Below, one piece after another: positions 516 to 53,704 of a stretch of 55,963 bases of DNA. The stretch is from a virus, in the IMG/VR virus record IMGVR_UViG_3300043313_001510, positions 1-55,963 of that record. One strand, given 5' to 3'. The translations under genes and the position numbers were made by a program. Under the pieces are notes generated by a model. The model had not been told where the DNA came from. It saw only the letters and a list, made by a program, of their open reading frames with translations, and did not search any database. Every line of letters starts with the position of its first letter. Position 1 is the first letter of the stretch.

Positions 516-853
516 CCGACGCTCGCGCAAACGTGCGCAACGCGCTAGAATGCGCCACCGACTCACCATCGCTGGAGCCTGCCATGCCGCGTCGCCGCCC
601 TGCCCCCACCTTCCTCCCGTACTCGGAGGATGCCGAGAACATGCACCCGGTCGAGTCCGCGCCGCCGGAGGTGCATCGCCTGTTCGAACTGGCGCGCGCA
701 CGCCGCATCACCATCGTTCGCCTGTGCGCGCTCGCGGGCGTGCATCACGACGTGGTCGGACGCTGGCGACGCGGCGACACGGAGCCGACGTTCCGCGTGA
801 TGCGCAAGCTGATGGACGTGCTGAATGACCTGCCCGTGCAGGAAGCTGCATGA
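512..853 (+). CDS. Small XRE-like helix-turn-helix protein
   Basis: 113 aa from the ATGA overlap, where the SD GGAGG lies 6 nt upstream. The C-terminal half (about residues 60-108) has an HTH-like pattern, ...LCALAGVHHDVVGRWRRG..., as in XRE/Cro-type domains, where the VVGRWRRG stretch would be the recognition helix. An internal ATG at 584 has its own GGAG and lies downstream of a promoter with the phage-wide inverted repeat (523-551), giving an alternative 89-aa product. Autoregulation, and control of the other operator-bearing promoters, is an inference. The right copy is at 53363-53704. Confidence 0.75.
   Translation: MTDARANVRNALECATDSPSLEPAMPRRRPAPTFLPYSEDAENMHPVESAPPEVHRLFELARARRITIVRLCALAGVHHDVVGRWRRGDTEPTFRVMRKLMDVLNDLPVQEAA
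523..551 (+). promoter_or_regulatory. Internal promoter of the operator family, upstream of the HTH alternative start
   Basis: TCGCGC, a 17-bp spacer containing GCGCAAACGTGCGC-like dyad symmetry, then TAGAAT. The -35 is weak, but the -10 and the dyad match the family seen elsewhere. It lies inside the first codons of the HTH gene and 33 nt upstream of the ATG at 584. An identical copy is at 53374-53402. Confidence 0.5.
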
Positions 854-2262
854 ACGTCAACTTCGCATTGCGGCCGTACCAGATGGCGGGGGTCGAAGCG
901 TTGCGGCAGGCGTACAAGCGTGGCCGCCGCGCGCCGATCTACGCGCTGCCGACCGGCGGCGGCAAGACGTTGGTGTTCTCGTACATCACGCGCAACGCTG
1001 TCAATCACGGCAGTCGCGTGCTGATCCTCGTGCACCGCGCCGAACTGCTGCGTCAGTCGTCGAACACGCTCACCCGATGGGGCGTGCCGCATGGCTGCAT
1101 ATCGCCCGCCTATCCGATGACGAATCAGATGGTACAGGTCGCCAGCGTGCAGACCGCGGTGCGTCGGCTCACGCGCATCGCGCCGCCCGACTTCATCATC
1201 ATCGATGAGGCGCACCACGTCGTGGCCGGAACGTGGCAGAAAGTGATCGAAGCGTTCCCGCGTGCACGCCTGCTCGGCGTGACCGCGACGCCTGCGCGCC
1301 TCGATGGCCGCGGCCTCGGTCGCCACTGTGGCGGCGTGTTCGACGAGTTGATCGTCGGCCCATCCATCGCGGAACTGATCGAAGGCGGGTTCCTCGTCCC
1401 GCCGCGCGTATTCGCCTCGCCGCGCCACCTGAATCTGTCGGGCGTCCGCACGCGCGGCGGCGACTTCGCATCCGATCAACTCGACCGCGTCATGCGCCAG
1501 CGCGAGATCGTCGGCGACGCGGTCGCGCACTACGCGCGCACCTGTCCCGGCGTGCCCGCCATCGCATTCTGCGTGAGCATCGAACACGCGACGCAGGTCG
1601 CGCAGCAATTCAGCGCGGCCGGCTGGCGTGCCCGCCGCATCGATGGAACGATGCCGGACGTGGAGCGCGCGGCCGTCGTTGCGGCGCTCGCCGAAGGCGA
1701 CCTCGACGTGATGGTGTCGGTCGATCTGGTGAGCGAGGGATTCGACGTGCCCGCGTGCGGAGCCGCGATCCTGATGCGGCCGACGCAGAGTGAGACACTC
1801 TTCCTGCAACAGGTCGGGCGTGCGCTGCGGCCTGCGCCCGGCAAAGCCTGCGCGTTCATCCTCGACCACGCGGGCAACGTCGCCCGCCACGGCCTGCCGC
1901 AAGAGGTGCGCGAGTGGACACTCGACGGCCGCCGCGCCCGCGAAGCCGCGCCCGAGTTGAAGCAGTGCCCGAACTGCTACGCGATGCTGCCGCGCCTCAC
2001 GCAAACGTGCCCCGAGTGCGAATACTATTTCGACGAGCATGTGCGCGCCGAATCGTCGACCGGCCGCGGCGAACTGAATCAGGTGGACGGCGAGTTGATC
2101 GAACTGACGCCGGAGATCATCGAACAGCATCGCGCGCAGCGCCGCCGCGAAGTCGAAGGTGCGCAGTCGCGCGAGGAACTGATGCGGATCGCGCGCCAGC
2201 GTGGCTACAACCCGCGCTGGGTCGACCACATCATGGCCGCGCGCGGACGGAGAAGTGCATGA
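850..2262 (+). CDS. Superfamily II DNA/RNA helicase (DEAH) with C-terminal zinc finger
   Basis: 470 aa. Visible motifs in order: LRPYQ near the N-terminus, Walker A PTGGGKT (34-40), DEAH (119-122), TATPARLDG (about 144-152), and motif VI QQVGRALRP (about 320). A C-x2-C...C-x2-C zinc ribbon follows at about 373-390. The architecture matches the SSL2/RAD25-like helicases common in phages, probably acting in DNA replication or recombination. The start overlaps the HTH gene by 4 nt and the stop overlaps the next gene. The right copy (53701-55113) differs at a few residues, clustered around 'VRTRGGDFA' and the tail after the zinc finger. Confidence 0.93.
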   Translation: MNVNFALRPYQMAGVEALRQAYKRGRRAPIYALPTGGGKTLVFSYITRNAVNHGSRVLILVHRAELLRQSSNTLTRWGVPHGCISPAYPMTNQMVQVASVQTAVRRLTRIAPPDFIIIDEAHHVVAGTWQKVIEAFPRARLLGVTATPARLDGRGLGRHCGGVFDELIVGPSIAELIEGGFLVPPRVFASPRHLNLSGVRTRGGDFASDQLDRVMRQREIVGDAVAHYARTCPGVPAIAFCVSIEHATQVAQQFSAAGWRARRIDGTMPDVERAAVVAALAEGDLDVMVSVDLVSEGFDVPACGAAILMRPTQSETLFLQQVGRALRPAPGKACAFILDHAGNVARHGLPQEVREWTLDGRRAREAAPELKQCPNCYAMLPRLTQTCPECEYYFDEHVRAESSTGRGELNQVDGELIELTPEIIEQHRAQRRREVEGAQSREELMRIARQRGYNPRWVDHIMAARGRRSA

Positions 2263-2615
2263 GAAAGCCATCGAAGCATCAGCAATGGCTGGCCGACGCG
2301 CTCGCGAAAGCGCGGACCGCGCTCGGCACGGATGGCGAGGATTGGGGTTCCGACGATCCCGCGGAATGGCACCGTCGCATCACGCTCGCGCTGGATACGA
2401 TTGACGCGCTGCCGGGCCGGCACTGGAGCGTTGATCCGGTGCACATCGTTGCCACCGCGCTGTTGGTCAACGCGGACATACTGCCGGACGACGCGCACCC
2501 CTATGCGCGATTCGGCGCTCGATTCGCGCAGCTTGCGCACGCGGATTCATTGCGACGCGCCATGCGCCGCCTCAACTATGACATCGACCGTGACCGCGAG
2601 CGGAGAAGCGCGTGA
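2259..2615 (+). CDS. Hypothetical protein, helicase operon
   Basis: 118 aa, starting at an ATGA overlap with the helicase and ending in an overlap with the next gene. It is mostly alpha-helical in appearance, with a basic C-terminus (RDRERR) and no motif I recognise. The near-identical copy at 55110-55466, with mainly silent changes, shows it is under protein-level selection. Confidence 0.85.
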   Translation: MRKPSKHQQWLADALAKARTALGTDGEDWGSDDPAEWHRRITLALDTIDALPGRHWSVDPVHIVATALLVNADILPDDAHPYARFGARFAQLAHADSLRRAMRRLNYDIDRDRERRSA

Positions 2616-2794
2616 TCGCCGTGTCGCTGCGCCCCGATCAGTGGGAGTTGGTGATGGACATGCTGGACGAGATGAATACGCGCCTCGCGCCCACGTCGCA
2701 GGACACGCCGGCCGCACGCTTCGCCCGTGCGTACACGCGCAAGCGTGTGGTCGAGACAACGCGCGACATCCGCAATCAACTGGAGACAGCATGA
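2612..2794 (+). CDS. Hypothetical protein, 60 aa (GTG start)
   Basis: Starts with GTG overlapping the TGA of the previous gene (GTGA). The homologue at 55747 starts with ATG because there an extra 95-aa gene sits in front of it. Helical and charged, with an ARFARAYTRKR segment. Function not recognised; conservation between the copies supports coding. Confidence 0.8.
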   Translation: MIAVSLRPDQWELVMDMLDEMNTRLAPTSQDTPAARFARAYTRKRVVETTRDIRNQLETA

Positions 2795-2952
2795 AGCCGT
2801 CGCCCGACCACATCATGTACTGCGCATTACAGGACATCGCGTCCGGCGAGTGCGCCGATCCGCAGATCACCGCCGCCAGTGCGCTGCTGGCCGTTGCCGC
2901 CTATGATGCCGATGAAGCCGAGGAACAGCGCATATCGGCTGCATCGAAATGA
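2791..2952 (+). CDS. Hypothetical protein, 53 aa
   Basis: Begins at an ATGA overlap and ends at another. Sequence MKPSPDHIMYCALQDIAS..., helical and acidic towards the C-terminus. The first 38 nt reappear at 55926-55963. No recognised family. Confidence 0.75.
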   Translation: MKPSPDHIMYCALQDIASGECADPQITAASALLAVAAYDADEAEEQRISAASK

Positions 2953-3224
2953 GCGAGTACATCCTGCGCGCAGTTGCGCATGCGAACGGAACGCCATGCC
3001 CGGTGAGCGGCCAGTACCTGAGTGGTTTCGACGACTCCAAATTCGATGGGATTGGCCTCGCCCGGTGGACCAGAGAACGCGCCGTCGCGAAGCGATTCGC
3101 CACGCATGCCGCAGCCTTCGCGTTCTGGCAGCAACAGTCGGACGCACGCCCGCTGCGGTCGGATGGCCGCCCCAATCGACCGCTGACCGCATACACCGTC
3201 GAGATACTGGAGATCAAAGCATGA
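2949..3224 (+). CDS. Hypothetical protein, 91 aa
   Basis: ATGA overlaps at both ends support translation in the early operon. It contains a conserved-looking core (SGQYLSGFDDSKFDG) and a C-terminal beta-strand-like TAYTVEILEIK. It resembles small unannotated phage early proteins; function unknown. Confidence 0.75.
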   Translation: MSEYILRAVAHANGTPCPVSGQYLSGFDDSKFDGIGLARWTRERAVAKRFATHAAAFAFWQQQSDARPLRSDGRPNRPLTAYTVEILEIKA

Positions 3225-3475
3225 CGCCCGTCGATGACAACAGCGACGCATTCAACGCCGCGCTGATGCTGCAACTCGCCGACTCGTTGAAGGATCGGCT
3301 CGCGTCGTATCCGCTCAAGATTCAGGGCGGCGTGCTGGCCGAACTGGTGTCGTGCTGGATCGGCCAGCACGACCTCGACAAGCGTGAGGGCGTGACGACC
3401 ATGTGGATCGAACTGGCGACCGACCTGATCCCGATCAATGCGCCGGAAGCGCAGCCGAAGCCGCCGACGCAGTGA
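3221..3475 (+). CDS. Hypothetical protein, 84 aa
   Basis: Starts by ATGA overlap and ends by GTGA overlap with the next gene. Soluble and helical, with an acidic N-terminus and a Pro-rich C-terminus (EAQPKPPTQ). No motif recognised. Confidence 0.75.
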   Translation: MTPVDDNSDAFNAALMLQLADSLKDRLASYPLKIQGGVLAELVSCWIGQHDLDKREGVTTMWIELATDLIPINAPEAQPKPPTQ

Positions 3476-3690
3476 GCCACGTCCCGCCGCGACGCATGCC
3501 ACAACATCCGCCCCGCCCGATGCCCGGCCCGCCGAAGCGTGGCCTCGACTGCGTCTACTGTGGCCGCGGCGACCAGCCCGACTACGCGGGGAACTGCAAC
3601 GGGTGCGGCGCGCCGCATCCGACCAGCGCACGCATCGACGTGACGACGTTCGCGTCGCCGCGGCCCGAGTACATCTGGAGTCCGAAATGA
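3472..3690 (+). CDS. Small zinc-ribbon protein, 72 aa (GTG start)
   Basis: GTG at 3472 overlaps the previous stop; an in-frame ATG at 3496 is an alternative. A Pro/Arg-rich N-terminus is followed by CVYCG...CNGCG, a C-x2-C/C-x2-C pair expected to bind one zinc. Function unknown. Confidence 0.7.
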   Translation: MSHVPPRRMPQHPPRPMPGPPKRGLDCVYCGRGDQPDYAGNCNGCGAPHPTSARIDVTTFASPRPEYIWSPK

Positions 3691-3932
3691 CCCGCATCGA
3701 GATGAACGACATCGACCACACGGTCACGATCAACGGCATCCGCGTGTCATACGAGATGCTCGACGCCTTCACGCGGACCACACCGGATGACGTGTACCTG
3801 CGCGTGATCCGCGAAGGCGATGTCGTAACCGTCGTCGAGTACCAATTCGAATCCGCCGAGCCGGGTAACAAGTGGGCCGTGCAAGATGACCGCCTCAAGC
3901 AATTCATCGGCCGCATCTTCCGCCGACGCTGA
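3687..3932 (+). CDS. Hypothetical protein, 81 aa
   Basis: ATGA overlap start. An alternating beta/alpha pattern and a basic RIFRRR tail. The final 47 nt overlap the next gene in another frame. No recognised family. Confidence 0.7.
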   Translation: MTRIEMNDIDHTVTINGIRVSYEMLDAFTRTTPDDVYLRVIREGDVVTVVEYQFESAEPGNKWAVQDDRLKQFIGRIFRRR

Positions 3933-4086: not shown

Positions 4087-4102
4087 CCGGCAGCAATGCC
4101 GG
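4087..4102 (+). other. Hairpin CCGGCA-GCAA-TGCCGG directly after stop codon
   Basis: A 6-bp stem with a GCAA (GNRA-type) tetraloop begins at the base after the TGA and is followed by TGACG. Similar hairpins are at 5881-5894, 15662-15677, 17829-17844 and 49861-49876. It has no U-tract, so a weak terminator, a 3'-end stabiliser or a protein-binding site are all possible. Confidence 0.6.
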
Positions 4103-4125
4103 TGACGACGCGCGAAAAAGCGCAG

Positions 4126-4154
4126 TTGACGCGGCGCGCAACATAACGCATAGT
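4126..4154 (+). promoter_or_regulatory. Operator-family promoter for the DGQHR/Mom-like genes
   Basis: TTGACG, 17-bp spacer, CATAGT. The spacer holds a degenerate dyad (GCGCAACATAACGC), and a second dyad, GCGCGAAAAAGCGC, lies just upstream at 4110-4123. It lies about 100 nt before the ATG at 4255 with no competing start in between. Confidence 0.7.
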
Positions 4155-4254: not shown

Positions 4255-5166
4255 ATGGCAACGCCATCGCTCGCGTTCACTCGCGAGAACATCACGCCCA
4301 CCAAAGCCAAGCGACTGATCGACCAGACACGCGCATCGGGATTCCGGCAGCGCCCGGTATCGCAAGCCGTCGTCAAGAAGTACGCGCACTCCATCGCCAC
4401 CGGGCTGTGGCAACCAGACACCGGCGACACCATCAAACTCGCATTGCGTGACGACGTCGAGATCGTGCTGGATGCACAGCACCGGCTGGAAGCCGTCATC
4501 GCATCGAATCAGGCGCAGACATTCTGGATCGTGCGCTACGTAGAGGAAACGATGTTCCGTTATTTCGATCAAGGACAGCCGCGCGATCTGTCCGACATGC
4601 TCGCCATCTGTGATTGGCCCGAGCCGAAGGTCCTGTCGAGCGCGGGCCGGATGTTGTGGAAGGAGGATACGACCGGCTCGCCGTTCATCAAGCCCGACGC
4701 CGACGAGATGCTGACCGACGGCGAAATCTCCGAGCATCTGGAGATCAACTATCGCGTCCCGTTGGTCGCGTACTTCAACGCACACAACAACGCATTGCGC
4801 ATGGCGCAGAGCAAGCGGCGCGGCGCGAAGGCGTGGATGCTGTATCTGTTCTTCCGGCTGTCGAAGGTCGACGCGGCCAAGGCCGACGACGCGCTGGCGT
4901 ATCTCGCCGACTCCGCGCTGCCGTTGCCGCACACGTCGTGGGTGCGCGCCATGGAGTACGTCGACAAGGTGCGCGAGTCCTTTGAGCGCGAGGGCGGCGG
5001 CCGCATCTTGAAGGGTCGCAACGTCGACCAGATGGAGGAAACGGTGCGCGCCTACCGGGCGGCATGGGAGGTCAGTCTGCGCGGCGCGCGCGGCGGCCTA
5101 ACGCTGCCCGCCCTCAAGCGTGAGATGGCGCGCATGGCTGGTCGCGCGTGGGACACGCTGGCATGA
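4255..5166 (+). CDS. DGQHR/DndB-like (ParB-related) protein
   Basis: 303 aa, with an SD-like AAAGG upstream. It contains a 'VLDAQHRLEAV' motif near residue 75, a variant of the DGQHR box that defines DndB/DptB-like and related phage proteins, followed by FRYFDQGQPRDLSD. DndB proteins are linked to DNA phosphorothioation; other DGQHR proteins have unassigned roles. The next gene (Mom-like) overlaps it by 4 nt, suggesting joint function, possibly in DNA modification. That role is inference. Confidence 0.75.
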   Translation: MATPSLAFTRENITPTKAKRLIDQTRASGFRQRPVSQAVVKKYAHSIATGLWQPDTGDTIKLALRDDVEIVLDAQHRLEAVIASNQAQTFWIVRYVEETMFRYFDQGQPRDLSDMLAICDWPEPKVLSSAGRMLWKEDTTGSPFIKPDADEMLTDGEISEHLEINYRVPLVAYFNAHNNALRMAQSKRRGAKAWMLYLFFRLSKVDAAKADDALAYLADSALPLPHTSWVRAMEYVDKVRESFEREGGGRILKGRNVDQMEETVRAYRAAWEVSLRGARGGLTLPALKREMARMAGRAWDTLA

Positions 5167-5912
5167 AGTGTCACCAGCGCATCATCCGCGAGGAAGCTGC
5201 GCTGGTCGATCCACGCAGCCCGCAGCCATCGCTGGCGGGTTGCGTGGTCGAGCCGGTCGCGCTGGCCGAAGCGGAGCGCGTGATCCTGCGCTACGAATGG
5301 CTGCGCAGCATGCCGACCAATCCGCGCGGCGCGTACGGACTGCGCGATCCATCCGGCTCGCTCGCTGGCGTCGTCTGCTTTGGCGTGGGCGGCGGATCGA
5401 ATGCGCGACTGATCTCCGGCGAGCCGTGGCGCGACCGCACGATCTGTCTGGAGCGTGGCGCGTGCGTGCATTGGGCGCACCCTCACGCGGGATCGTTCCT
5501 CGTCGCGCGTGCATGCGCAGCCGCGGCGCGTGACTACGGATGGCGCGTGTTCTATGCGTACTCGGACGAAGCCGCCGGCGAGATCGGCACGATCTATCAG
5601 GCGTGCAACTGGCGCTACATCGGCCAGTCGGTCGGGCGCGGCAGTCGCTTCCGCTCGGCGTTCATATCGCCGGACGGCGAGCGCATCACCAGCAAGGCAT
5701 GGCGCGCCCTGCGTCGCCGCGAAGGCGGCGTGTCGCAGGACCAGATGTTCGCGCAGGGATGGCAGCGCGACCGCGCCGTCGAGAAGCACAAGTACGTCGG
5801 GTTCTATGGTCCGCGCGACGAGCGACGACGCGCGGAGCGCGACTGTCGATATCCACCGCTCGACTATCCTAAGCGTTCATCGGCAGCAATGCCGGTGACG
5901 CGGCCGCTTTGA
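5163..5912 (+). CDS. Mom-like GNAT-fold protein, putative DNA modification enzyme
   Basis: 249 aa, ATGA overlap with the DGQHR gene. The core has FGVGGGSNARLI, an invariant-looking CLERGACVHWAHPHAG segment, then YAYSDEAAGEIGTIYQACNW, the pattern I associate with the phage Mom family (the Mu enzyme modifies adenine). The basic C-terminus (YGPRDERRRAERDC) could contact DNA. The last codons contain a CGGCA hairpin, and the stop lies in the -35 box of the next promoter. Assignment is by remembered motif, so a generic acyltransferase remains possible. Confidence 0.65.
   Translation: MKCHQRIIREEAALVDPRSPQPSLAGCVVEPVALAEAERVILRYEWLRSMPTNPRGAYGLRDPSGSLAGVVCFGVGGGSNARLISGEPWRDRTICLERGACVHWAHPHAGSFLVARACAAAARDYGWRVFYAYSDEAAGEIGTIYQACNWRYIGQSVGRGSRFRSAFISPDGERITSKAWRALRRREGGVSQDQMFAQGWQRDRAVEKHKYVGFYGPRDERRRAERDCRYPPLDYPKRSSAAMPVTRPL
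5881..5894 (+). other. CGGCA-GCAA-TGCCG hairpin at gene end
   Basis: The same core as the 4087 hairpin, including the GCAA loop and the following GTGACG, but inside the last codons of the Mom-like gene and 14 nt before the next promoter. Confidence 0.5.
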
Positions 5913-5937
5913 CACGCGGCGCAAATTCGCGCATCCT
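5909..5937 (+). promoter_or_regulatory. Operator-family promoter for the recombination operon
   Basis: TTGACA, 17-bp spacer containing GCGCAAATTCGCGC, CATCCT. A second dyad (GCGCAAATCGCGC) follows at about 5949-5961. It lies 42 nt upstream of the small gene at 5980, which leads the RecE/RecT genes. Confidence 0.75.
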
Positions 5938-8992: not shown

Positions 8993-9664
8993 ATGAAACG
9001 CATCCTCGCCGCACTGGCGCTCGCGTGCGCTGCCAGCCTCGCGTACGCCGGACCGATCTACACGTTCGAAGTCAGCGAAGGCGTGAATCCCGACGACGTC
9101 GGTGACATCACGCTGTCGCAAGTGGACGCGACCACGGTCCGCATTCTGGTGGACCTCAATGACACGTCGCTGCCGACGCCGCGCTACGGCTTCATCAATA
9201 CGGGTGGCCCGCATACGCCGTTCGCATTCACCGTCGCCGGCGTGGACACCGGCCTCACCGCGAACTTCATCCAGCCGAGCGGTGGCCTGTACACGTTCGG
9301 GCTGTTCACGCTCAACACCGGCGGCGGTGCGGCGACACCCTACGGCACGTACGGCGTGGCCATCGACAGCACGGCTGGCAACGGATCGTCGAATGCGTAC
9401 TACGGTGATCTGGAATTCACGCTGACGCGCGCATCGGGTCTCGACACGAACGACTTCATCAGCAACGGCTCCGCATGGTTCGCGGCCGATCTGACGAATG
9501 GATTGAGCAACACCGGCACGCAAGCGTGGACGATTCGCACCGTGGCCGACTGTCCCGACTGCACGCCGACGCCCGCTGCGGTGCCGGAGCCGGGTGCACT
9601 GGCGCTGCTGGGTGCGGGCCTGTTCGCACTCGCGCGCACGCGCCGTCGCAAGTTGGTCGCCTGA
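8993..9664 (+). CDS. Secreted PEP-CTERM domain protein
   Basis: 223 aa. An N-terminal signal peptide (MKRILAALALACAASLAYA), an extracellular-looking Gly/Thr/Asn-rich body, then the tripartite PEP-CTERM tag: VPEPGALALLG, a hydrophobic helix and an RTRRRK cluster. In bacteria this tag is processed by exosortase and the protein is exported to the cell surface or exopolysaccharide matrix. SD AAAGGGAG precedes the ATG. In a phage it is probably cargo from the host that changes the infected cell's surface; that role is inference. Confidence 0.9.
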   Translation: MKRILAALALACAASLAYAGPIYTFEVSEGVNPDDVGDITLSQVDATTVRILVDLNDTSLPTPRYGFINTGGPHTPFAFTVAGVDTGLTANFIQPSGGLYTFGLFTLNTGGGAATPYGTYGVAIDSTAGNGSSNAYYGDLEFTLTRASGLDTNDFISNGSAWFAADLTNGLSNTGTQAWTIRTVADCPDCTPTPAAVPEPGALALLGAGLFALARTRRRKLVA

Positions 9665-12260: not shown

Positions 12261-12866
12261 CTAGACTCCGTCCAAGTTGCGGAGGTTGAAGTTGGCGCGC
12301 ATCCACGACGGGTAGTCGTTGTCGATATTGGTGATCCAATCCGACTGGCGCGGCTGCTGCGCCGACTTGGCCGCGGCATCCCGCTTGACCCACGCGCCGC
12401 GATACCGCTTCTCGCGCTCCGACGAGCGCACGGCTTCCTTCACCGCGCGGTTGATCTGGCGGATCGGCATGCCGCACTCGGCATAGCCTTCGCGCAGCGT
12501 CTGCTCGTACGACTGCGGCGGCTCGTACACGTCGCGCCGCACGCCGGCCATGACGTAGAACATCACCAGCCGGGACTGACCGCGGAACTGGATGCGCGCA
12601 TACCGCTTCCCGTAAAAGCTGGGGAAGCCTTCGAAGCGATCCAGCGCGCGCTCGTCGCTGGGCTGAATCTCCCAAAGCGCGCAGACCACCTCGGAGCGCG
12701 GCGCGTCGATGACATCGGCGACGCCGCGAAAGACCAGCGCGAAGTCGTGCAGGGTGCAGTTGCCGACGTACTGCGCCGAAGGACAGCGCGTCGCCATGTG
12801 GCCGCGGTTGGTGTTCGCACCGTAGGCGGCATAGAGAATCGGATAGGTCTGGGTGACCGGGTTCAT
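12261..12866 (-). CDS. Gamma-glutamylcyclotransferase-like (GGCT/AIG2) protein
   Basis: 201 aa from ATG 12866 with SD AGGAAAAG and an operator-family promoter at 12907-12935. The YAAYGANTNRGHM phosphate-loop-like motif and LDRFEGFPSFYGKRY are diagnostic of GGCT/AIG2 folds, which cyclise gamma-glutamyl groups. The C-terminal 60 residues are an extra basic extension. An amidoligase is encoded at 14654-15502. Published genomic surveys of amidoligases describe linkage of the two families in phages, suggesting they make and remove an amide-linked modification. The substrate here is unknown. Confidence 0.85.
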   Translation of the reverse strand: MNPVTQTYPILYAAYGANTNRGHMATRCPSAQYVGNCTLHDFALVFRGVADVIDAPRSEVVCALWEIQPSDERALDRFEGFPSFYGKRYARIQFRGQSRLVMFYVMAGVRRDVYEPPQSYEQTLREGYAECGMPIRQINRAVKEAVRSSEREKRYRGAWVKRDAAAKSAQQPRQSDWITNIDNDYPSWMRANFNLRNLDGV

Positions 12867-12906: not shown

Positions 12907-12935
12907 ATTATGCGCTTTTTTGCGCGACGTGTCAA
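12907..12935 (-). promoter_or_regulatory. Operator-family promoter for GGCT-like operon
   Basis: On the minus strand: TTGACA, 17-bp spacer with GCGCAAAAAAGCGC, CATAAT. One of the best matches to the family; it lies 41 nt upstream of ATG 12866. Confidence 0.85.
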
Positions 12936-12948: not shown

Positions 12949-13359
12949 CTACTTCATGACGCCGAAGATTTCCGCCAGTTGCGCATAGACCTTGCGCGCC
13001 TGATCGAAGTTGAGCGTCATCGTTTCGTTCTTCCCGACTTCGATGACGAGCAGCACGCCGGTCCCGCGCGCGGGTTCGGCGTGGCCGTTGGCGCGCGTTG
13101 GCGCGTGACGGACCAGCGTGTTGTCCCATGAATCCTCGCCGGGCGGCAGCGCGGCGGCGCGCGGGTAGTAGCGGAACGCTGGCGACATCGGCACCTTGAG
13201 CCGGTTCACCATGCGCTCGGTGACGAGTCGCGACAGCAGCGCGGACACCGACGACGGCTTGACCGGGAGGTGCACGGCCAATTCGTTCGGCGTGAGGCCG
13301 GGATGTTTTTCGATGGCGTCGAGCGCGGCGCGGTCGACCTGCGAGAGTTTGATGGACAT
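12949..13359 (-). CDS. Winged-helix (MarR-like) transcriptional regulator
   Basis: 136 aa. Residues 8-54 (DRAALDAIEKHPGLTPNELA..., VKPSSVSALLSRLVTERMVNRL) form a winged-HTH pattern. The C-terminus (VEVGKNETMTLNFDQARKVYAQLAEIFG) is a separate alpha/beta piece. Its promoter (13389-13417) carries the phage-wide inverted repeat, and the next promoter of the family lies right after its stop, so it is a candidate regulator of the family. A role at those operators is inferred only from position. Confidence 0.75.
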   Translation of the reverse strand: MSIKLSQVDRAALDAIEKHPGLTPNELAVHLPVKPSSVSALLSRLVTERMVNRLKVPMSPAFRYYPRAAALPPGEDSWDNTLVRHAPTRANGHAEPARGTGVLLVIEVGKNETMTLNFDQARKVYAQLAEIFGVMK

Positions 13360-13388: not shown

Positions 13389-13417
13389 ATGATGCGCTAA
13401 TTTGCGCGTCGCGTCAA
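13389..13417 (-). promoter_or_regulatory. Operator-family promoter for winged-helix gene
   Basis: Minus strand TTGACG, 17-bp spacer with GCGCAAATTAGCGC, CATCAT; about 30 nt upstream of ATG 13359. The TGA inside the -35 box is also the stop codon of the preceding leftward gene. Confidence 0.8.
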
Positions 13418-13602
13418 GCGCCGCTCGTCAGCACGCACGCGAGCAGGACGACGAACAGCAGCGCGGGTGCCGCGCCGACCAGCCATGCGAACAGCGGTCG
13501 GCATCCCGCATCCGCGGCGCTCGCCCGCGCAGCGGCGCACAGGCGCGCGAGTAGATGGACTATCGCGCCGGCGGCCAGCACCAGTGCGACAGTCTCGATC
13601 AC
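13414..13602 (-). CDS. Small membrane protein, 62 aa (GTG start)
   Basis: Two hydrophobic segments (ETVALVLAAGAIVHLLARL and LFAWLVGAAPALLFVVLLA) predict two transmembrane helices. GTGA overlap with the gene upstream. It belongs to a cluster of three tiny membrane proteins and a lipoprotein that could be the holin/spanin set, although no endolysin is recognisable nearby. Confidence 0.65.
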   Translation of the reverse strand: MIETVALVLAAGAIVHLLARLCAAARASAADAGCRPLFAWLVGAAPALLFVVLLACVLTSGA

Positions 13603-14653: not shown

Positions 14654-15502
14654 TCAGTCGGCCAGCGCGCCGCCGCGGTTCAGCGCCACGCGGCGCGCCT
14701 TCAGGTAGTCGGCCGTCGCGCGGTCCACCTTGCGGACCAGCTTGTCGAACGACGGCTCGCGCTGCGTCGTCACCGACTTCAGTGAGAACGACGAGGCGAC
14801 CAGTCCGACCATCAGCTTGATCCACGCCGACGCCTTCTGTCCCTCGACGGTCCCGGCGTGCTGGCGGAATTCCACCGTGCCGTGCGACGAGAGCGATTGG
14901 TAATTCAGTTTGTAGTAGCGGTTGCCGCGGTTCCAGCCGCCGTTGATCACGGTCGCAATCGCCGACGCCGAGCGCAGTCCGTCCAGCTTGCCGAACGCCG
15001 CGGCGATCTGCGCTTCGTAAGTCGCCGCCACGCCGTAGCCGGCCGCCTGCTGGCGGTTCGACTGGCAGTACCGGTTCGCGTTGCCGCGACGGGTCGGAGG
15101 GCAGAGCGAGTCCAGATGATGTTCGTATTTCAGGAACATCTTGGCGAGGTTCTTCAGTTGCGTCGCCGTCGCGCTTTGCGCTCCGACGTGCACGTGCAGG
15201 CCGCACGTCGTGTTCACCTTGCCGCCGAACGCCTTGATCGCGTCCATCGCGCGGACCACTTGCGCGAGACCTTCGTCGCCGCGCAGGATCGGCGAGACCA
15301 CTTCGACGCCGACGTGACCGGCGGGCGCGCTGTGCAGCGAGCCATCCGGCACAACCTTCCAGCCGCTGGTCGTCGCGTGGATGCTGCCCGCCACGTGCGA
15401 CATCGACAGCCCGGCCGCTTGGAGCGCCGCGAACAGTCGCGTCGCGTTGCCCGGCACGTAGCACTCGATTTCGACGCCAAAGGTGAAGTCTTGGAATTGC
15501 AT
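14654..15502 (-). CDS. Amidoligase family protein
   Basis: 282 aa with SD GAGGAAAA. FGVEIECY at the N-terminus, DGSL and EVVSPILRG in the middle, and TCGLHVHVG at about residue 110 are hallmark motifs of the glutamine-synthetase-like amidoligase_2 family, which joins amines to carboxylates using ATP. NRYYKLNYQSLSSHGTVEFRQH follows the family pattern at the C-terminal active site. It is transcribed from an operator-family promoter (15598-15626) and pairs with the GGCT-like gene. The target (peptide, peptidoglycan or small metabolite) is unknown. Confidence 0.88.
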   Translation of the reverse strand: MQFQDFTFGVEIECYVPGNATRLFAALQAAGLSMSHVAGSIHATTSGWKVVPDGSLHSAPAGHVGVEVVSPILRGDEGLAQVVRAMDAIKAFGGKVNTTCGLHVHVGAQSATATQLKNLAKMFLKYEHHLDSLCPPTRRGNANRYCQSNRQQAAGYGVAATYEAQIAAAFGKLDGLRSASAIATVINGGWNRGNRYYKLNYQSLSSHGTVEFRQHAGTVEGQKASAWIKLMVGLVASSFSLKSVTTQREPSFDKLVRKVDRATADYLKARRVALNRGGALAD

Positions 15503-15597: not shown

Positions 15598-15626
15598 ATA
15601 GTGCGCCTCTGCGCAAAATTGCGCAA
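15598..15626 (-). promoter_or_regulatory. Operator-family promoter for amidoligase operon
   Basis: Minus strand TTGCGC, 17-bp spacer, CACTAT. The dyad GCGCAATTTTGCGC overlaps the -35 box. It is about 96 nt upstream of ATG 15502. Confidence 0.8.
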
Positions 15627-15661
15627 GCACTTTTTCGATGCCGCCGACGAACGGTAGCTCA

Positions 15662-15755: not shown

Positions 15756-15784
15756 TTGCGCTTTTTTGCGCGTCCTGCTATACG
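15756..15784 (+). promoter_or_regulatory. Operator-family promoter, distal, rightward small-gene operon
   Basis: TTGCGC, 17-bp spacer, TATACG, with a dyad overlapping the -35 (GCGCTTTTTTGCGC). It points right towards the second promoter at 15854, with no start codon and SD in between, so the two appear to be tandem promoters of one operon. Confidence 0.7.
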
Positions 15785-15853
15785 CGCGGGCGCGCGCTTC
15801 CTGAACAGTAACGGGCGCGGCCGCCCGCAGCCGACGAACGGTCGCGAAAACGC

Positions 15854-15882
15854 TTGCGCAAATTTGCGCAGGGGCGCATACT
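15854..15882 (+). promoter_or_regulatory. Operator-family promoter, proximal, rightward small-gene operon
   Basis: TTGCGC, 17-bp spacer, CATACT; the perfect dyad TGCGCAAATTTGCGCA overlaps the -35. It is preceded by the 12-bp block GCCGACGAACGG (15830-15841) and is 54 nt upstream of the ATG at 15936. Confidence 0.85.
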
Positions 15883-42750: not shown

Positions 42751-43953
42751 TCAGTAACGAGTCCCGACATCTGCGCCAAGTTGCGCAAGGGTCTCGGCCG
42801 GATTCTCACCGCGCTTGATCGCCATGTCCATCGCTTTCATGCGCAGGTTCTGCGCCTTGCGTCCCTTGGTGTCGCCGCGATTCGCCATCATGCTGATGAA
42901 CTTCCACGACACCGCGGTGTGCGGATCGGGTGTCGCATCGGGGATCGGCGAGTTGGTTTTCTGCGCGTGCTGCGACATCACGTTGTCGATGGCTGCGGCA
43001 ATTTTGCCCCTCATGGGTTGCGGCCACAGCTTGAGCAGTTGGAACGTCCACTCGCGATAGGTGAGACCGGGCGGCGGCTTCGTTTCGCCGAACGAGAACA
43101 GTTCGGTCTTGGCATAGCGCGCGCCGGTCGCCACGCCGTGGCATCGCTTCGACATCTTCGCCCACATCTCCGGCGCGATCATCTGGTACAGATGCAGCCC
43201 GGCGAGCGGTTCCTCGCCGAACGGTGGGCACACGCGCTGCTGATGCACCGACACGCCGGCCATATCGAACAGGTCGTACGTGCGGTTGTAGTCGTAGCCG
43301 TGCAACTGCGGGAAGAACCACACGTCGAGCGAGGTCCAATCGTAGATCGGGTAGGCGAGCGACACGTGACCGGCAATCGTGCCTTGCATGAGCCAGTTCT
43401 CATGCTCGCGATGCGACACCGACATCCGCCGACGCGGCGACTCCTGCGCGCGCAGCCCGAGAATCTGCGCCTGCGTTTCGCGCGGCGAATTCGGCTTCAG
43501 CGAGTACGGTCCGAGATCGGGCATCGGCGAGAACTTGGATGGCGCATCGCTGCGCAGCATCTCGGTCAGCGCGCACTCCGGCAGCGGAGCGCACCACAGA
43601 TGCCGTTCGTCGGGATGCCACGGATGCCAATACGGCTGCGTGCGCGACGACGCATTGCGATGCTGCACCGGGATGCAGTACCAGATCAGCTTGACATCGG
43701 GGTTCTGCTGGACGCGACGCACATACTCGATGGTCGTCGGATAGATCGCTTCCTCGTCGTAGAACACCGCCTCGACCGGCAGGCGGCCGTGCGCGCGCGC
43801 GGCTTCGATGGCAAGGTGCAGGCAGACGGTCGAATCCTTGCCGCCGGAGAACATCACCGACACGCGGTCGAATCGGCGATAGAGCGCATCGACGCGCTCG
43901 CGCGCGGCGGTCAGTACATCGCGGTCGGTTGGCTTGCCTCGCAGTGCCCTCAT
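42751..43953 (-). CDS. IbrA-like PAPS reductase/FAD synthetase-family protein, 400 aa
   Basis: PP-loop SVMFSGGKDSTVCLHLAI at about 31-48, EAVFYDEEAIYPTTIEYVRRV, WCAPLPECALTEML, and a C-terminal domain (about 280-400) like DUF3440 found in IbrA. Such ATP-pyrophosphatase-fold enzymes adenylylate or handle activated sulphur species. ATGA overlap with the next PAPS-reductase-like gene makes them a pair. Confidence 0.85.
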   Translation of the reverse strand: MRALRGKPTDRDVLTAARERVDALYRRFDRVSVMFSGGKDSTVCLHLAIEAARAHGRLPVEAVFYDEEAIYPTTIEYVRRVQQNPDVKLIWYCIPVQHRNASSRTQPYWHPWHPDERHLWCAPLPECALTEMLRSDAPSKFSPMPDLGPYSLKPNSPRETQAQILGLRAQESPRRRMSVSHREHENWLMQGTIAGHVSLAYPIYDWTSLDVWFFPQLHGYDYNRTYDLFDMAGVSVHQQRVCPPFGEEPLAGLHLYQMIAPEMWAKMSKRCHGVATGARYAKTELFSFGETKPPPGLTYREWTFQLLKLWPQPMRGKIAAAIDNVMSQHAQKTNSPIPDATPDPHTAVSWKFISMMANRGDTKGRKAQNLRMKAMDMAIKRGENPAETLAQLGADVGTRY

Positions 43954-49617: not shown

Positions 49618-49664
49618 TGATTCCTCGCGAGAAAGTTGGCGCGCACGCTTGCGCACCATCCCCG

Positions 49665-49693
49665 ACAATAAGCCGGGCCGACGGGTGGCGCAA
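49665..49693 (-). promoter_or_regulatory. Promoter for SSB/primase-helicase operon
   Basis: Minus strand TTGCGC, 17-bp spacer, TATTGT, 48 nt before ATG 49617. The spacer has no full dyad, but an extra TTGCGC half-site lies 7 nt upstream, so it may be a weaker relative of the family. Confidence 0.6.
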
Positions 49694-50151: not shown

Positions 50152-50180
50152 ATTCTCGCACGCCGCGCAAAAATGCGCAA
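50152..50180 (-). promoter_or_regulatory. Operator-family promoter for 49878 gene
   Basis: Minus strand TTGCGC, 17-bp spacer with GCGCATTTTTGCGC overlapping the -35, GAGAAT. Upstream lies GCCGACGAACGG (50196-50207), the same block as at 15643, 15830 and 52223. Confidence 0.75.
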
Positions 50181-50243
50181 GCCTTTTCGACCCCCGCCGA
50201 CGAACGGCGCGCGCGACCGCTCGTCGGCGGCCCGGAAAACCGC

Positions 50244-50272
50244 TTGACGGACCGCGCAAAAAAGCGCAGACT
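50244..50272 (+). promoter_or_regulatory. Operator-family promoter for 50322 gene
   Basis: TTGACG, 17-bp spacer with GCGCAAAAAAGCGC, CAGACT; 49 nt upstream of ATG 50322. A shifted TTATCA just after it could also act as -10. Together with 50152-50180 it forms a divergent pair. Confidence 0.8.
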
Positions 50273-50321
50273 TATCACTCCTGCGACGGACGCCCGCCGC
50301 TCAACTCCGAAAGGAAACCTG

Positions 50322-50561
50322 ATGACCAGCACGCGATTCCACATCGAGCCAGCCGTTCTCCGCGCGATGGAGCCGTTCGTCGAAGCGCACTACAGCACGG
50401 ACGTATGGAGCCTGCCCGAAACGAATTACCTCATGGGCCTGTTCCCGCACGACGAATTCGAGATCGGCGACTTCGTGAAGGCGCATCGCCGCACGCTCGC
50501 GCGCGTCGGCCCGGCCCTGATCGAACAGTGGACCGCCTACGCGGCCGCCTCCGCGAAGTAG
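50322..50561 (+). CDS. Hypothetical protein, 79 aa
   Basis: SD AAAGGAAAC before the ATG. Acidic/aromatic (EAHYSTDVWSLPETNYLMGLFPHDEF), helical end. Single-gene unit between a divergent promoter and a strong bidirectional terminator at 50577-50608. Confidence 0.7.
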   Translation: MTSTRFHIEPAVLRAMEPFVEAHYSTDVWSLPETNYLMGLFPHDEFEIGDFVKAHRRTLARVGPALIEQWTAYAAASAK

Positions 50562-50576
50562 CAGCGCCGCACGACC

Positions 50577-50608
50577 GCACAACGCCGCCTCACCGGGCGG
50601 CGTTGTGC
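50577..50608. terminator. Bidirectional terminator between convergent genes
   Basis: A perfect 13-bp stem GCACAACGCCGCC/GGCGGCGTTGTGC with loop TCACCG. It partly overlaps the end of the leftward gene (stop at 50590). The longest hairpin in the window. Confidence 0.75.
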
Positions 50609-50895
50609 ATCGCGCTGACGGCCAGCGCCGCGGCGAGCGCCGCGCGCAGTCGCGCATTCTCGGCGCGCAGCGTCCGCATGCTCTCGGACCCGCGTCGGTT
50701 CATGACCGTGTACAGCCGCGCGTTGTCGGCGCGCAGCATCGCCACGACGCGATCCGCCTCGTCGAGATCGGCGGCCATCTGTGTGATCCACTCGCGCGCA
50801 CGCTCGGCGAGTGTGACGCATTGTCGACACGCCCCCTCCTGCGCATCCTCGACGGTAATGCAGTCAGTGCACCGCACGACCGCGAGCGCGCTCAC
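50590..50895 (-). CDS. Zinc-finger/coiled-coil protein, 101 aa (GTG start)
   Basis: GTG 50895, overlap with the upstream gene. CTDC...CRQC is a likely zinc pair, then a helical section (REWITQMAADLDEADRVVAMLRADN and RTLRAENARLRAALAAA) with leucine heptads typical of dimerising coiled coils. Unknown function. Confidence 0.65.
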   Translation of the reverse strand: MSALAVVRCTDCITVEDAQEGACRQCVTLAERAREWITQMAADLDEADRVVAMLRADNARLYTVMNRRGSESMRTLRAENARLRAALAAALAVSAMHNAAR

Positions 50896-51086
50896 GATTT
50901 CACCTCGGCCGTCGCCTCGACCCACGCGAGCCACACGTCGTACGGATCGTGGCGCTTGAAGCGACCGCACGCGCGGATCGATTCCTCGCACGCCGCCTGC
51001 CACGCGCCATCCGGTAAATCTTCGAACGCGGACAGCAGTCCGTTCAGATACGCGATATCGAAGTTGCTGAGTAGACGCTTCGACAT
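50892..51086 (-). CDS. Hypothetical protein, 64 aa
   Basis: ATG 51086, overlapping both neighbours. Helical with YLNGLLSAFEDLPDGAWQAACEE; resembles small phage early proteins. No family. Confidence 0.65.
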   Translation of the reverse strand: MSKRLLSNFDIAYLNGLLSAFEDLPDGAWQAACEESIRACGRFKRHDPYDVWLAWVEATAEVKS

Positions 51087-51274
51087 CACCAGCACCATCC
51101 CTCGCCGCATTCGGTGGTCCACATCACCAGCACCACGAATGCCAGCACGACGGCGAGCGACAGCCAGCCCACGGTGCCGAGCCGCAGCCGTCCCTCGTCG
51201 GTGATATGCAGCACGCCGGGCGAGCGGTCGCCGCGCGGCGTAACGTAGTGCCGCTCGTCGAATTCAGCCATCAT
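51086..51274 (-). CDS. Single-TM protein, 62 aa
   Basis: AGGAG precedes two ATGs at 51274 and 51271. Basic N-terminal part, then TVGWLSLAVVLAFVVLVMW as one transmembrane helix and a Cys/Trp-rich tail (TECGEGWCW). Leads the leftward operon from 51385-51413. Confidence 0.65.
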   Translation of the reverse strand: MMAEFDERHYVTPRGDRSPGVLHITDEGRLRLGTVGWLSLAVVLAFVVLVMWTTECGEGWCW

Positions 51275-51384
51275 CAATCTCCTGTGTCATTGGTAGAAGG
51301 TCCAGCGCGCCCACTCGGCGACATTCTCGTCGGCCGGCGGTACGCGAACGCATGGCGCACGCCACCAGCGCGCGACGGCCCGCA

Positions 51385-51413
51385 ACATAGCACGCGCTTT
51401 TTTGAGCATGCAA
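51385..51413 (-). promoter_or_regulatory. Operator-family promoter, leftward member of divergent pair
   Basis: Minus strand TTGCAT, 17-bp spacer with CTCAAAAAAGCGCG, CTATGT. Only 8 bp separates it from the rightward promoter at 51422; one bound protein could affect both. Confidence 0.65.
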
Positions 51414-51421
51414 GCCCCCAC

Positions 51422-51450
51422 TTGACGCGCAGAAATGCGCAGGCTATACT
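51422..51450 (+). promoter_or_regulatory. Operator-family promoter for 51497 gene
   Basis: TTGACG, 17-bp spacer starting with the dyad GCGCAGAAATGCGC-like sequence, TATACT. The best -10 in the set; 47 nt upstream of ATG 51497. Confidence 0.85.
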
Positions 51451-51496
51451 TCACTTGTCGAGCCACCGGGCCGACGCCAACCAACGGAGATTCACA

Positions 51497-51871
51497 ATGA
51501 ACGAACAGAACATCAACGCCATCACGCCCGCCCTGCTGTTCATGGCCGAGAAGTACCGTGTCATCGGGACCATCGCCAACCGGTTCGACGACGGCGCGAT
51601 TGTCGATGCCGCATCGACCGCGGAGCAGGCGGCCCGCCGCGTGGCCATGACCATCAGCCACGACGGCCTCACCTCGCGCGAAGATGCGACGACGGTGAAT
51701 ACCGCCATCGAAGGATGGCTGGACAACATGAATCGGCAACTCCAGACGCTCGCCGGCCGCGGCCAGATGCAGGACGCCGCGCTGGTCGAGCATCGTATCC
51801 GCGAACTGTACGCGGCGCAGCAAGCCGTGGAACTGCACGCCCGCGGCCTCGCCGAAACGGCCGCCGCATAA
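51497..51871 (+). CDS. Hypothetical helical protein, 124 aa
   Basis: SD ACGGAGA before the ATG. Long amphipathic helices (EKYRVIGTIANRFDDGA, NRQLQTLAGRGQMQDAAL). Single-gene unit followed by a terminator with a U-tract. No family recognised. Confidence 0.7.
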   Translation: MNEQNINAITPALLFMAEKYRVIGTIANRFDDGAIVDAASTAEQAARRVAMTISHDGLTSREDATTVNTAIEGWLDNMNRQLQTLAGRGQMQDAALVEHRIRELYAAQQAVELHARGLAETAAA

Positions 51872-51890
51872 CCGTACGCATCACGCCACG

Positions 51891-51914
51891 CGGCCCGCCT
51901 CGGCGGGCCGTTTT
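51891..51914 (+). terminator. Rho-independent terminator
   Basis: Stem CGGCCCGCC/GGCGGGCCG with a 2-nt apparent loop and TTTT right after it, then CGTTT. Clear intrinsic terminator for the 51497 gene. Confidence 0.85.
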
Positions 51915-51943
51915 CGTTTCCCCCATCGCATCGGAGCGCGCGC

Positions 51944-52204
51944 ATGAAGTACGTGGTTGTAGTCGAACAACGTGGCATCCATCAAGCCGTCGGTCCCTAC
52001 GCGACCATGGCGCACGCGCGCCAGCACGCGACCGCATGGCACGGCGACGATGATCGCAAGTGCACCATCATGCCCATCGCCACGACCTACTCGTACGTCG
52101 TCGAGCATGCCAATGGGTTCGCCACGCGGGCCGCTGCGCGCCGCGCCGGAGCCGCCCCGGCCTCACCCCCGCCGGAGCCGCCGGAGCCGCCCGCGGCCGC
52201 CTGA
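51944..52204 (+). CDS. Hypothetical protein, 86 aa
   Basis: ATG 51944 with CGGAG upstream. YVVVVEQRGIHQAVGPYATMAHA is beta-alpha-like; the Pro-rich C-terminus (PPPEPPEPP) is low complexity. No promoter with the dyad is evident upstream; it may be read from a terminator-leaky transcript. Confidence 0.6.
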   Translation: MKYVVVVEQRGIHQAVGPYATMAHARQHATAWHGDDDRKCTIMPIATTYSYVVEHANGFATRAAARRAGAAPASPPPEPPEPPAAA

Positions 52205-52236
52205 CGCCCCGCGCCGCCGGTGGCCGACGAACGGGG

Positions 52237-52265
52237 TTGACGGCCTGCGCAAAAAAGCGCAGCAT
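52237..52265 (+). promoter_or_regulatory. Operator-family promoter for right-end operon
   Basis: TTGACG, 17-bp spacer with TGCGCAAAAAAGCGCA, CAGCAT. Immediately preceded by GCCGACGAACGG (52223-52234). 41 nt upstream of ATG 52306. Confidence 0.85.
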
Positions 52266-52305
52266 AGGGACTTCGCTGCTCAACAACACCGGAAAGGAAG
52301 TCCCA

Positions 52306-52500
52306 ATGTTCCACAATCACACCGGCCTGATCCTCACGCCGAAGTCCTGCGAAACGCTGACCGGCGCGCTGATCTGGCTGCGCGGCGAAGTCGGCGCAGT
52401 CTCCTGCACCGTCGAGGGCATCGAAGGCCGCCCGAGCGTGGGCCCGTCGCTGACGTTCAACGTGCTGCTGGACCGCAACGGTCTGGCGCGGAGGGCATAA
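52306..52500 (+). CDS. Hypothetical protein, 64 aa
   Basis: SD GGAAAGGAAG before the ATG. Beta-rich (LILTPKSCETLTGALIWLRG, SLTFNVLLDRNGLARR). First gene of the operon leading into the DUF6011-like, HTH and helicase genes. No family recognised. Confidence 0.7.
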   Translation: MFHNHTGLILTPKSCETLTGALIWLRGEVGAVSCTVEGIEGRPSVGPSLTFNVLLDRNGLARRA

Positions 52501-52502
52501 GC

Positions 52503-53366
52503 ATGACCGCCGAACGTATCGCCGCCCTGACCGCGGCACTCCCGTCGCTCGACGCTTCGTCGCGCACGTTCGCCGAATCGCTGCTGCGCCAGTACGCGCA
52601 GCGCGGCAACCTGACGGTGCGCCAGTGGCCGCACGTCGAGCGCCTGTGCGAACGTGCACAGCGTCCGGCCGGAGCGCCCGCCGCGCCCGTCGGCGAGTCG
52701 CTGCCGGAACCGAACGCCGACGCCCTGCGCGCGCGCCTCGCGGCCGCCGCGGCGCACGGCCTGCTGCGCCCGATGATCCGCGTCGGCACGATGCGCCTGT
52801 CGCTGCCGGGTCCGACCAGCCAGTACGCGAATCGCCCGGTGGTGTTCGTGCGCAACGCGAACACGTACGCGGGCCGCATCGAAGCGGGCCGCTTCATCGC
52901 CGCGCGCGGCGCGCTGCCCGGCGACACGCGCGACACCGTCGCCGCGCTGCACAGTGTGCTGACCGGCGACGTGGTCGAGAACCTCGCCGCCATCGGCCGC
53001 CGGACCGGTTCGTGCTGCTTCTGCGCGCGCGAGTTGACCGACGGCCGCAGCGTGCGCGTCGGGTACGGTCCGGTGTGCGCCGACCACTACGGTCTGCCGT
53101 GGGGCGAGCGTGACGCGGAGTCGGAGGGCGAAGCCGCCGACGCCGCCATGACGGCGGAACAGGTGAGCGCCGCCGTCCGCGAGCGCCAGCGTGAAGCCGC
53201 CGCCGTGGCCCGCCGTGCGCTCGCATCGGCGGTGGTGGACGGCGGCCCCCTGCGCCCGACGCCCCCGCTCCTGCGCCCGCTGCCGGCCGCCTGTGCGAAC
53301 AGCGCGCCGGTCGCGCCGGACCAGTTGGACGACGAAGATCGCATGTTCATGGGAGGCTCGCAATGA
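52503..53366 (+). CDS. DUF6011-like zinc-binding protein, 287 aa (full copy)
   Basis: The ATG at 52503 is chosen because it follows the previous stop by two bases with SD-like GGAGG upstream. N-terminal helices (LDASSRTFAESLLRQYAQRGN), a beta-rich middle (RPMIRVGTMRLSLPGP...VVFVRNANTYAGRIEAG), then the C-x2-C...GP-x-C zinc motif. The linker after VSAAV differs from the left copy in length and sequence. Overlaps the HTH gene by 4 nt. Confidence 0.82.
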   Translation: MTAERIAALTAALPSLDASSRTFAESLLRQYAQRGNLTVRQWPHVERLCERAQRPAGAPAAPVGESLPEPNADALRARLAAAAAHGLLRPMIRVGTMRLSLPGPTSQYANRPVVFVRNANTYAGRIEAGRFIAARGALPGDTRDTVAALHSVLTGDVVENLAAIGRRTGSCCFCARELTDGRSVRVGYGPVCADHYGLPWGERDAESEGEAADAAMTAEQVSAAVRERQREAAAVARRALASAVVDGGPLRPTPPLLRPLPAACANSAPVAPDQLDDEDRMFMGGSQ

Positions 53367-53704
53367 CCGACGCTCGCGCAAACGTGCGCAACGCGCTAGA
53401 ATGCGCCACCGACTCACCATCGCTGGAGCCTGCCATGCCGCGTCGCCGCCCCGCCCCCACCTTCCTCCCGTACTCGGAGGATGCCGAGAACATGCACCCG
53501 GTCGAGTCCGCGCCGCCGGAGGTGCATCGCCTGTTCGAACTGGCGCGCGCACGACGCATCACCATCGTTCGCCTGTGCGCGCTCGCGGGCGTGCATCACG
53601 ACGTAGTCGGACGCTGGCGACGCGGCGACACGGAGCCGACGTTCCGCGTGATGCGCAAGCTGATGGACGTGCTGAATGACCTGCCCGTGCAGGAAGCTGC
53701 ATGA
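53363..53704 (+). CDS. XRE-like HTH protein (second copy)
   Basis: 113 aa, same length as the left copy and the same protein apart from silent changes. Same ATGA overlap, internal start and embedded promoter. As an assembly duplicate it should be counted once if the ends are redundant. Confidence 0.75.
   Translation: MTDARANVRNALECATDSPSLEPAMPRRRPAPTFLPYSEDAENMHPVESAPPEVHRLFELARARRITIVRLCALAGVHHDVVGRWRRGDTEPTFRVMRKLMDVLNDLPVQEAA
53374..53402 (+). promoter_or_regulatory. Operator-family promoter inside HTH gene (second copy)
   Basis: TCGCGC, 17-bp spacer, TAGAAT, identical to 523-551 despite divergence in the flanking genes. Confidence 0.5.

Follow-up and report, generated by a model that had tools for sequence, protein, structure and literature searches.

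In the 55,963-base stretch of viral DNA analysed here (hereafter the window; IMG/VR record IMGVR_UViG_3300043313_001510, 67 % GC), the early and accessory promoters carry two recurring elements, a 14-bp inverted repeat (dyad) at the promoter core and, at six of them, an AlgR-type box further upstream. We read these as two-input promoters, with a host AlgR-type activator predicted at the phased box and a phage repressor of the helix-turn-helix (HTH) family HTH_3 predicted at the dyad, and assign this reading a probability of roughly 0.6. The dyad would serve as operator of the Cro/C1-type HTH_3 protein encoded at 512–853, and about a dozen promoters, its own included, would thereby be closed to RNA polymerase. 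At six promoters the CCGTTCGTC box, which lies upstream of the -35 element in either orientation and with a defined helical phasing, would take a host AlgR-type (LytTR) regulator, which would contact polymerase from a fixed helix face and thereby activate transcription. Dyads, promoters, boxes, phasing, the agreement of the box with the AlgR consensus, a parallel arrangement in the related phage G028 (IMGVR_UViG_3300045997_000193) and a similar one in phage ZRG1 can be read directly from sequence; from these we infer which protein binds where and whether it activates or represses.

Dyads in early and accessory promoters

All 14 sites listed in an initial annotation of the window, together with a copy at 53374, were present on reading the sequence, and the 17-bp spacer it described holds at the listed promoters. 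The ends of the window are variant copies of each other (1–2621 versus 52873–55472, 93 % identical; 2613–2828 versus 55748–55963, 97 %), so that the unit genome measures about 52.9 kb and 53374 represents a copy of site 523 and no extra site. Overall, the end copies (1–2828 and 52873–55963) are 93–97 % identical variants forming an inexact repeat, and the downstream one contains an extra open reading frame (ORF; 55463–55750), which suggests mixed strains in the assembly.

The annotation had proposed counting chance occurrences in shuffled sequence; this count was carried out, and the dyad and promoter-dyad numbers lie far above those of the shuffles. The dyad GCGC-[A/T]6-GCGC was observed eight times in 52,872 bases (mean of 0.00–0.04 in Markov shuffles of orders 1–5), the strict class I promoter-dyad TTGAC-N5-GCGC-N6-GCGC-N4-T five times (mean at most 0.02) and the promoter pattern TTG[AC][CG]N-N17-[TC]AnnnT 16 times (mean about 4). 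By means of a symmetric matrix, 14 dyads scoring at least 14 were detected per genome length, with 0.6 expected; three of them (542, 4110 and 51394) lie outside the matrix training set, yet all three are located at promoters. Twelve of the 14 dyads are intergenic, compared with 8 % of the sequence according to the gene calls (p~6e-12), the remaining two (525 and 542) are located within the leader of the HTH ORF, and all 14 lie across or next to promoters with a 17-bp spacer. No dyad of the matrix class scoring at least 14 was found in the structural operon. Many copies of one site thus stand at the promoters of several operons, as would be expected for a phage-wide regulon, and the repeated palindrome probably serves as target of a phage repressor. 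A spacer operator of the MerR type, in which a spacer of 19–20 bp is corrected by the activator, was ruled out, the spacers here being 17 bp.

Three main placements of the dyad were observed, starting 10 bp (between -35 and -10), 5 bp (exemplified by promoter 51422) or 2 bp (over the -35) after the start of the -35. Two promoters carry double dyads. That of the HTH-helicase operon (TCGCGC-N17-TAGAAT, 523–551, + strand, from sequence reading) bears GCGCAAACGTGCGC over the -35 (525–538, score 15.2; copy at 53376–53389) and a second dyad, GCGCTAGAATGCGC, over the -10 (542–555, score 15.8, untrained; copy at 53393–53406), and the promoter TTGACG-N17-CATAGT (4126–4154, +; whole element 4110–4154) has dyads at 4110–4123 and, in degenerate form, 4136–4149. 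Further promoters on the + strand, recognised like the latter by sequence and matrix, are TTGACA-N17-CATCCT (5909–5937, dyad 5919–5932), TTGCGC-N17-TATACG (15756–15784, dyad 15758–15771), TTGCGC-N17-CATACT (15854–15882, dyad 15856–15869), TTGACG-N17-CAGACT (50244–50272, dyad 50254–50267) and TTGACG-N17-TATACT (51422–51450, dyad 51427–51440), joined by TTGACG-N17-CAGCAT (52237–52265, dyad 52247–52260), which has an orthologous dyad promoter at G028 7910. The - strand contains, again by sequence and matrix, TTGACG-N17-CATCAT (13389–13417, dyad 13394–13407), TTGCGC-N17-CACTAT (15598–15626, dyad 15611–15624) and TTGCGC-N17-GAGAAT (50152–50180, dyad 50165–50178). Three others on this strand are TTGACA-N17-CATAAT (12907–12935, dyad 12912–12925), which drives a gamma-glutamyl cyclotransferase-like gene and is orthologous to a dyad promoter at G028 12236, TTGCAT-N17-CTATGT (51385–51413, degenerate dyad 51394–51407, score 14.2, untrained) and TTGCGC-N17-TATTGT (49665–49693; whole element 49641–49693) of the leftward replication/late operon.

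With regard to the details of the annotation, its -35 forms TTGACG and TTGCGC apply to most sites, but not to 5909 and 12907 (TTGACA), 523 (TCGCGC) or 51385 (TTGCAT), and its -10 forms CAnnnT and TATACT fit some promoters, several others reading TAGAAT, GAGAAT, TATACG, CTATGT or TATTGT. A dyad is indeed found at most sites, the two at 51394 (promoter 51385) and 4136 (promoter 4126) being degenerate; promoter 49665, however, has none at its -35 or in its spacer, but only a weak one (49641–49654, score 10.8) just downstream of the -10. A stem-loop CCGGCA-N4-TGCCGG, probably an intrinsic terminator, recurs at 4087, 14112, 17829, 24838 and 49861, and the one at 4087 directly precedes the dyad promoter 4126.

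Candidate proteins at the dyad

The HTH_3 gene (512–853, +; Pfam HTH_3 24.6 bits, cut-off 23) stands behind dyads 525 and 542 and forms one operon with a DEAD/DEAH helicase gene (850–2262, +; phrog_16, E 1.5e-100), so that a phage DNA-binding protein is found under its own putative site. Translation probably begins at M25 (584) or M44 (641), both of which follow the gene's own promoter. The same arrangement is found in G028, which shares with the window TerL (63 % identical), the helicase (63 %) and RecT (57 %): an HTH gene, 38 % identical to that of the window, directly precedes the helicase gene and has two tandem dyads in its own promoter. These dyads belong to a family of G028's own, likewise of 14 bp (TCGCA-N4-TGCGA), which is represented in promoters by six exact copies and additional ones with a single mismatch, and they stand before orthologous genes, e.g., at G028 12236 and window 12912, both before the gamma-glutamyl cyclotransferase-like gene. 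This gene (12261–12866, -) and an amidoligase-like gene (14654–15502, -) are both under dyad promoters in the window and both kept in G028. ZRG1, too, harbours an HTH gene beside the helicase gene, together with a third dyad family (TTTAC-N3-GTAAA) and the same AlgR-type box. The divergence of the dyads looks like co-evolution of operator and repressor.

A second regulator, a MarR-type winged-helix protein (12949–13359, -; Pfam MarR_2 34.1 bits, above cut-off), is encoded directly under dyad promoter 13389 and could bind the dyad and repress itself and the remaining promoters, since MarR proteins bind palindromes. This is improbable, as no homologue was detected in G028 despite the equivalent dyad family of that phage, whereas the HTH gene is retained there, its promoter bearing tandem dyads; the HTH protein is therefore favoured over the winged-helix protein. 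Quite improbable is a host-encoded regulator at the dyad, with the phage carrying the sites only. A host-type box for a further factor is, it is true, present in the phage. In orthologous promoters of related phages, however, the dyads differ with the AlgR-type box remaining constant, and in IMG/VR the tight class I pattern was found only in the window's population and in one lone match (L003) lacking a second site. IMG/VR contigs from sample 3300042820, which match the window at 100 %, were counted as the same population and as non-independent. We thus favour the HTH protein as the best candidate for a phage-wide, self-regulating repressor. The annotation's proposal of a regulon under one protein that covers the promoter core is supported in part and can be narrowed, with the HTH protein as the favoured candidate; it lacks the AlgR-type upstream layer. 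No integrase was identified among the subset of window genes scanned; apart from a role in a temperate life cycle, a shut-off of early genes in the lytic cycle is equally possible for the repressor.

Similarity of the HTH protein to solved repressors was not significant (P22 C2, E 0.45), and protein searches of phage records with the HTH protein and the winged-helix protein yielded no relatives. In IMG/VR, the winged-helix protein matched only the window's own population and the helicase scan gave no matches; blastn with the promoter cassettes revealed no kin. Neither the GCGC dyad nor an HTH homologue was found in G004, G008 and G003, phages having mainly late genes in common with the window. 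Bordetella phages with similar helicases have repeated intergenic dyads of their own and no box at their promoters; in PBb001 and PY223 an intergenic cassette combines GATAG-N-CTATC and ATTG-N7-CAAT dyads (L021, 300–410, 35010–35120 and 40690–40800; L022, 13310–13420 and 18960–19070).

The AlgR-type box

The second shared element, CCGTTCGTCGG, absent from the initial annotation, is present as CCG[T/C]TCGTC upstream of six window promoters and looks like an AlgR site. Expressed as the bases between CCGTTCGTCGG and the -35, its gaps are 17, 16 and 16 in forward and 12, 2 and 3 in reversed orientation. Forward boxes are located at 15644–15654 (-; CCGTTCGTCGG, gap 17 to promoter 15598, matching TACCGTTCGTCGG at 13 of 13 positions), 50197–50207 (-; CCGTTCGTCGG, gap 16 to promoter 50152) and 50217–50227 (+; CCGCTCGTCGG, gap 16 to promoter 50244), reversed ones at 15831–15841 (-; gap 12 to promoter 15854), 52224–52234 (-; gap 2 to promoter 52237) and 13421–13429 (+; variant CCGCTCGTC, gap 3 to promoter 13389). 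The 9-bp AlgR core CCGTTCGTC is exact at 15598, 15854, 50152 and 52237 and matches at 8 of 9 positions at 50244 and 13389. A role of CCGTTCGTCGG as RNA hairpin was set aside in view of its occurrence in both orientations upstream of promoters, and a phage-borne LytTR protein as binding partner was ruled out for the window, which encodes none.

A set position of the box relative to the promoter was observed in the window, G028, ZRG1 and IMG/VR. Scanning IMG/VR for CCGTTCGTCNG-N{15,25}-TTGAC-N18-TANNNT retrieved 74 contigs, compared with 7 for a permuted box, with a gap of 17 in 53 of 77 matches; among shorter forward gaps a peak occurs at 6–7. Reversed boxes were retrieved in 77 contigs at gaps of 2–4, 11–15 and 21–24, in agreement with gaps near 2 and 12 predicted before the scan from window promoters 52237 and 15854. 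At a helical repeat of 10.25 bp, dereplicated promoters are phased for reversed (R=0.89, n=63, p~3e-22) and forward boxes (R=0.67, n=54, p~4e-11), the Rayleigh p values being approximate in that they assume independence of the dereplicated promoters and even coverage of the gap ranges scanned. When those of the window, G028 and ZRG1 were combined, forward boxes yielded R=0.94 (n=15, including G028 4692 and 5310, which came from the scan itself, and the gaps at G028 7961 and 9846, which were read by eye).

Boxed phage promoters also carry core dyads: in a dereplicated set of 107, those scoring at least 7 occur 16 times, versus 2.6 in shuffles, and in G028 all seven intergenic boxes precede dyad promoters. 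The box is thus the constant and the operator the changing part, and this pairing of a box with differing palindromes recurs in many unrelated phages. An origin of the repeats as copies of a mobile promoter element devoid of regulatory meaning is highly improbable. One 45-bp pair (15611–15654 and 50165–50207) is 84 % alike, but the promoters differ outside dyad, -35, -10 and box, the flanks are unconserved in most copies, the orientation of the box varies and its distance shifts by whole helical turns.

The assignment to AlgR is based on published sites. AlgR is a LytTR-family response regulator of type IV pili and alginate, and CCGTTCGTC is the published core of its sites at algD (RB1/RB2), algC (ABS1) and rhlA (PMC4064291). 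In the prrF2 promoter, AlgR binds at -72 to -63 with Fur over the -35/-10, so that an AlgR box located upstream is combined with a repressor operator at the core, and four base changes in the 9-bp AlgR site abolish binding (PMC5790918). Among 300 Pseudomonas genomes, the box pattern was found in 24 (1 for a backwards-read control), all at gaps of 26–29; of six examples read, five stand before bfd, the promoter core of which looks like a Fur box, and one before a cdiB-type transporter gene. The bfd promoters of the Pseudomonas genomes L253, L255, L244, L246 and L258 have the AlgR-type box 26–29 bp before the Fur-box-like core, and in the Pseudomonas genomes L123, L132 and L245 the box stands at gap 26 before two-partner secretion (cdiB/cdiA-like) genes; the literature searched does not clearly report bfd to be under AlgR control. 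Across 257 Gb of bacterial genomes the pattern occurred at only 19 places, mostly beta-/gammaproteobacterial, and 15 of the 17 genomes with the pattern encode a LytTR protein, those of Fluviicoccus, Acinetobacter, Gallionellaceae and Polaromonas being 38–49 % identical to the Pseudomonas one. Paraburkholderia has an off-phase gap of 3 and no LytTR protein.

Another conserved factor could bind the CCGTTCGTC box in the same upstream, helix-phased activating role. The extended consensus TACCGTTCGTCGG reaches beyond the 9 bp of the published AlgR core and the LytTR direct repeat is rare among the boxes, but we consider this rather unlikely in view of the exact match to the AlgR core, the comparable position of the prrF2 site with its loss of binding upon alteration (PMC5790918), and the beta-/gammaproteobacterial bias with AlgR homologues in the matching genomes. 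Several observations weigh against our reading. Eight of the listed promoters have no clear box, 11 relaxed hits among boxes outside strict TTGAC promoters, too few and too loosely defined to carry weight, showed no phasing (R=0.13), and AlgR is also able to repress. LytTR proteins are common, so that their co-occurrence with the pattern is weak support for AlgR, and the paired direct repeat typical of LytTR sites (21 bp apart; also given as about 12 bp apart) is present in only 4 of 53 forward boxes (~8 %); AlgR sites often lack this repeat according to a review.

Other genes of the window encode a secreted protein bearing a PEP-CTERM sorting signal at its C-terminus (8993–9664, +; Pfam PF07589), a possible hint at an exosortase-bearing host, as well as a Mom-like DNA modification protein (5163–5912, +) and a PAPS-reductase-like protein (42751–43953, -), by which the phage DNA may be modified.

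Relation to known regulatory systems

One repressor acting at many conserved inverted repeats in early promoters is the plan of phage phiC31, which the window would share with other sequence, protein and host; to our knowledge, phiC31 has no activator box. Cro-C1 repressors of the 434/P22 type likewise have palindromic sites in early promoters. The operator of 434 has a length of 14 bp, outer half-sites of 4 bp each and a centre rich in AT. The window dyad resembles it in all three respects, differing in sequence, and we know of no activator box described for 434/P22-type systems. In Cluster A mycobacteriophages, as proposed for the window, one phage repressor has many genome-wide sites; these stoperators, however, are asymmetric, lie within transcribed regions and act on elongation (PMC9283540), whereas the window sites are symmetric dyads in promoter cores. 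The Pseudomonas promoters of prrF2 (PMC5790918) and bfd resemble those of the window in having an AlgR-type box upstream at a set distance and a repressor site over the -35/-10. They differ in belonging to host genes, in using Fur and in their gap of about 26–29, the phages having mainly 17, 7 and, reversed, 3 and 13.

On balance, we lean towards the view that many beta-/gammaproteobacterial phages have brought their early promoters, independently of one another, under host AlgR, at a fixed helix face and combined with a fast-changing operator of their own, so that infection would read the pilus, surface and stress state of the host. If so, early phage expression in many environmental bacteria would hang on one host two-component system, the one that controls type IV pili, alginate and iron genes in Pseudomonas. 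Whether phages read host surface state would become directly testable, the promoters could suggest hosts for metagenomic phages, and the conserved host box with its changing phage operator would provide a clean pair for studying the evolution of repressor specificity.

Multi-operator phage repressors (PMC9283540) and phage promoters under CtrA (PMC9437464) are already known; the AlgR case looks new, in that a literature search which did not reach most subscription journals brought up no description of such boxes in phage promoters. The closest counterpart would be the CtrA-governed phages of Alphaproteobacteria, the promoters of which were shown by experiment to be CtrA-controlled (Mascolo et al. 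2022, PMC9437464, a paper in which AlgR is not mentioned). There, as predicted here, sites for a host response regulator are concentrated in promoters of unrelated phages and are proposed to read host state. The two cases differ in regulator and host range (CtrA in alphaproteobacteria, AlgR-type boxes in mostly beta-/gammaproteobacterial phages), and the AlgR-type sites are helix-phased, paired with phage operators and predicted from sequence.

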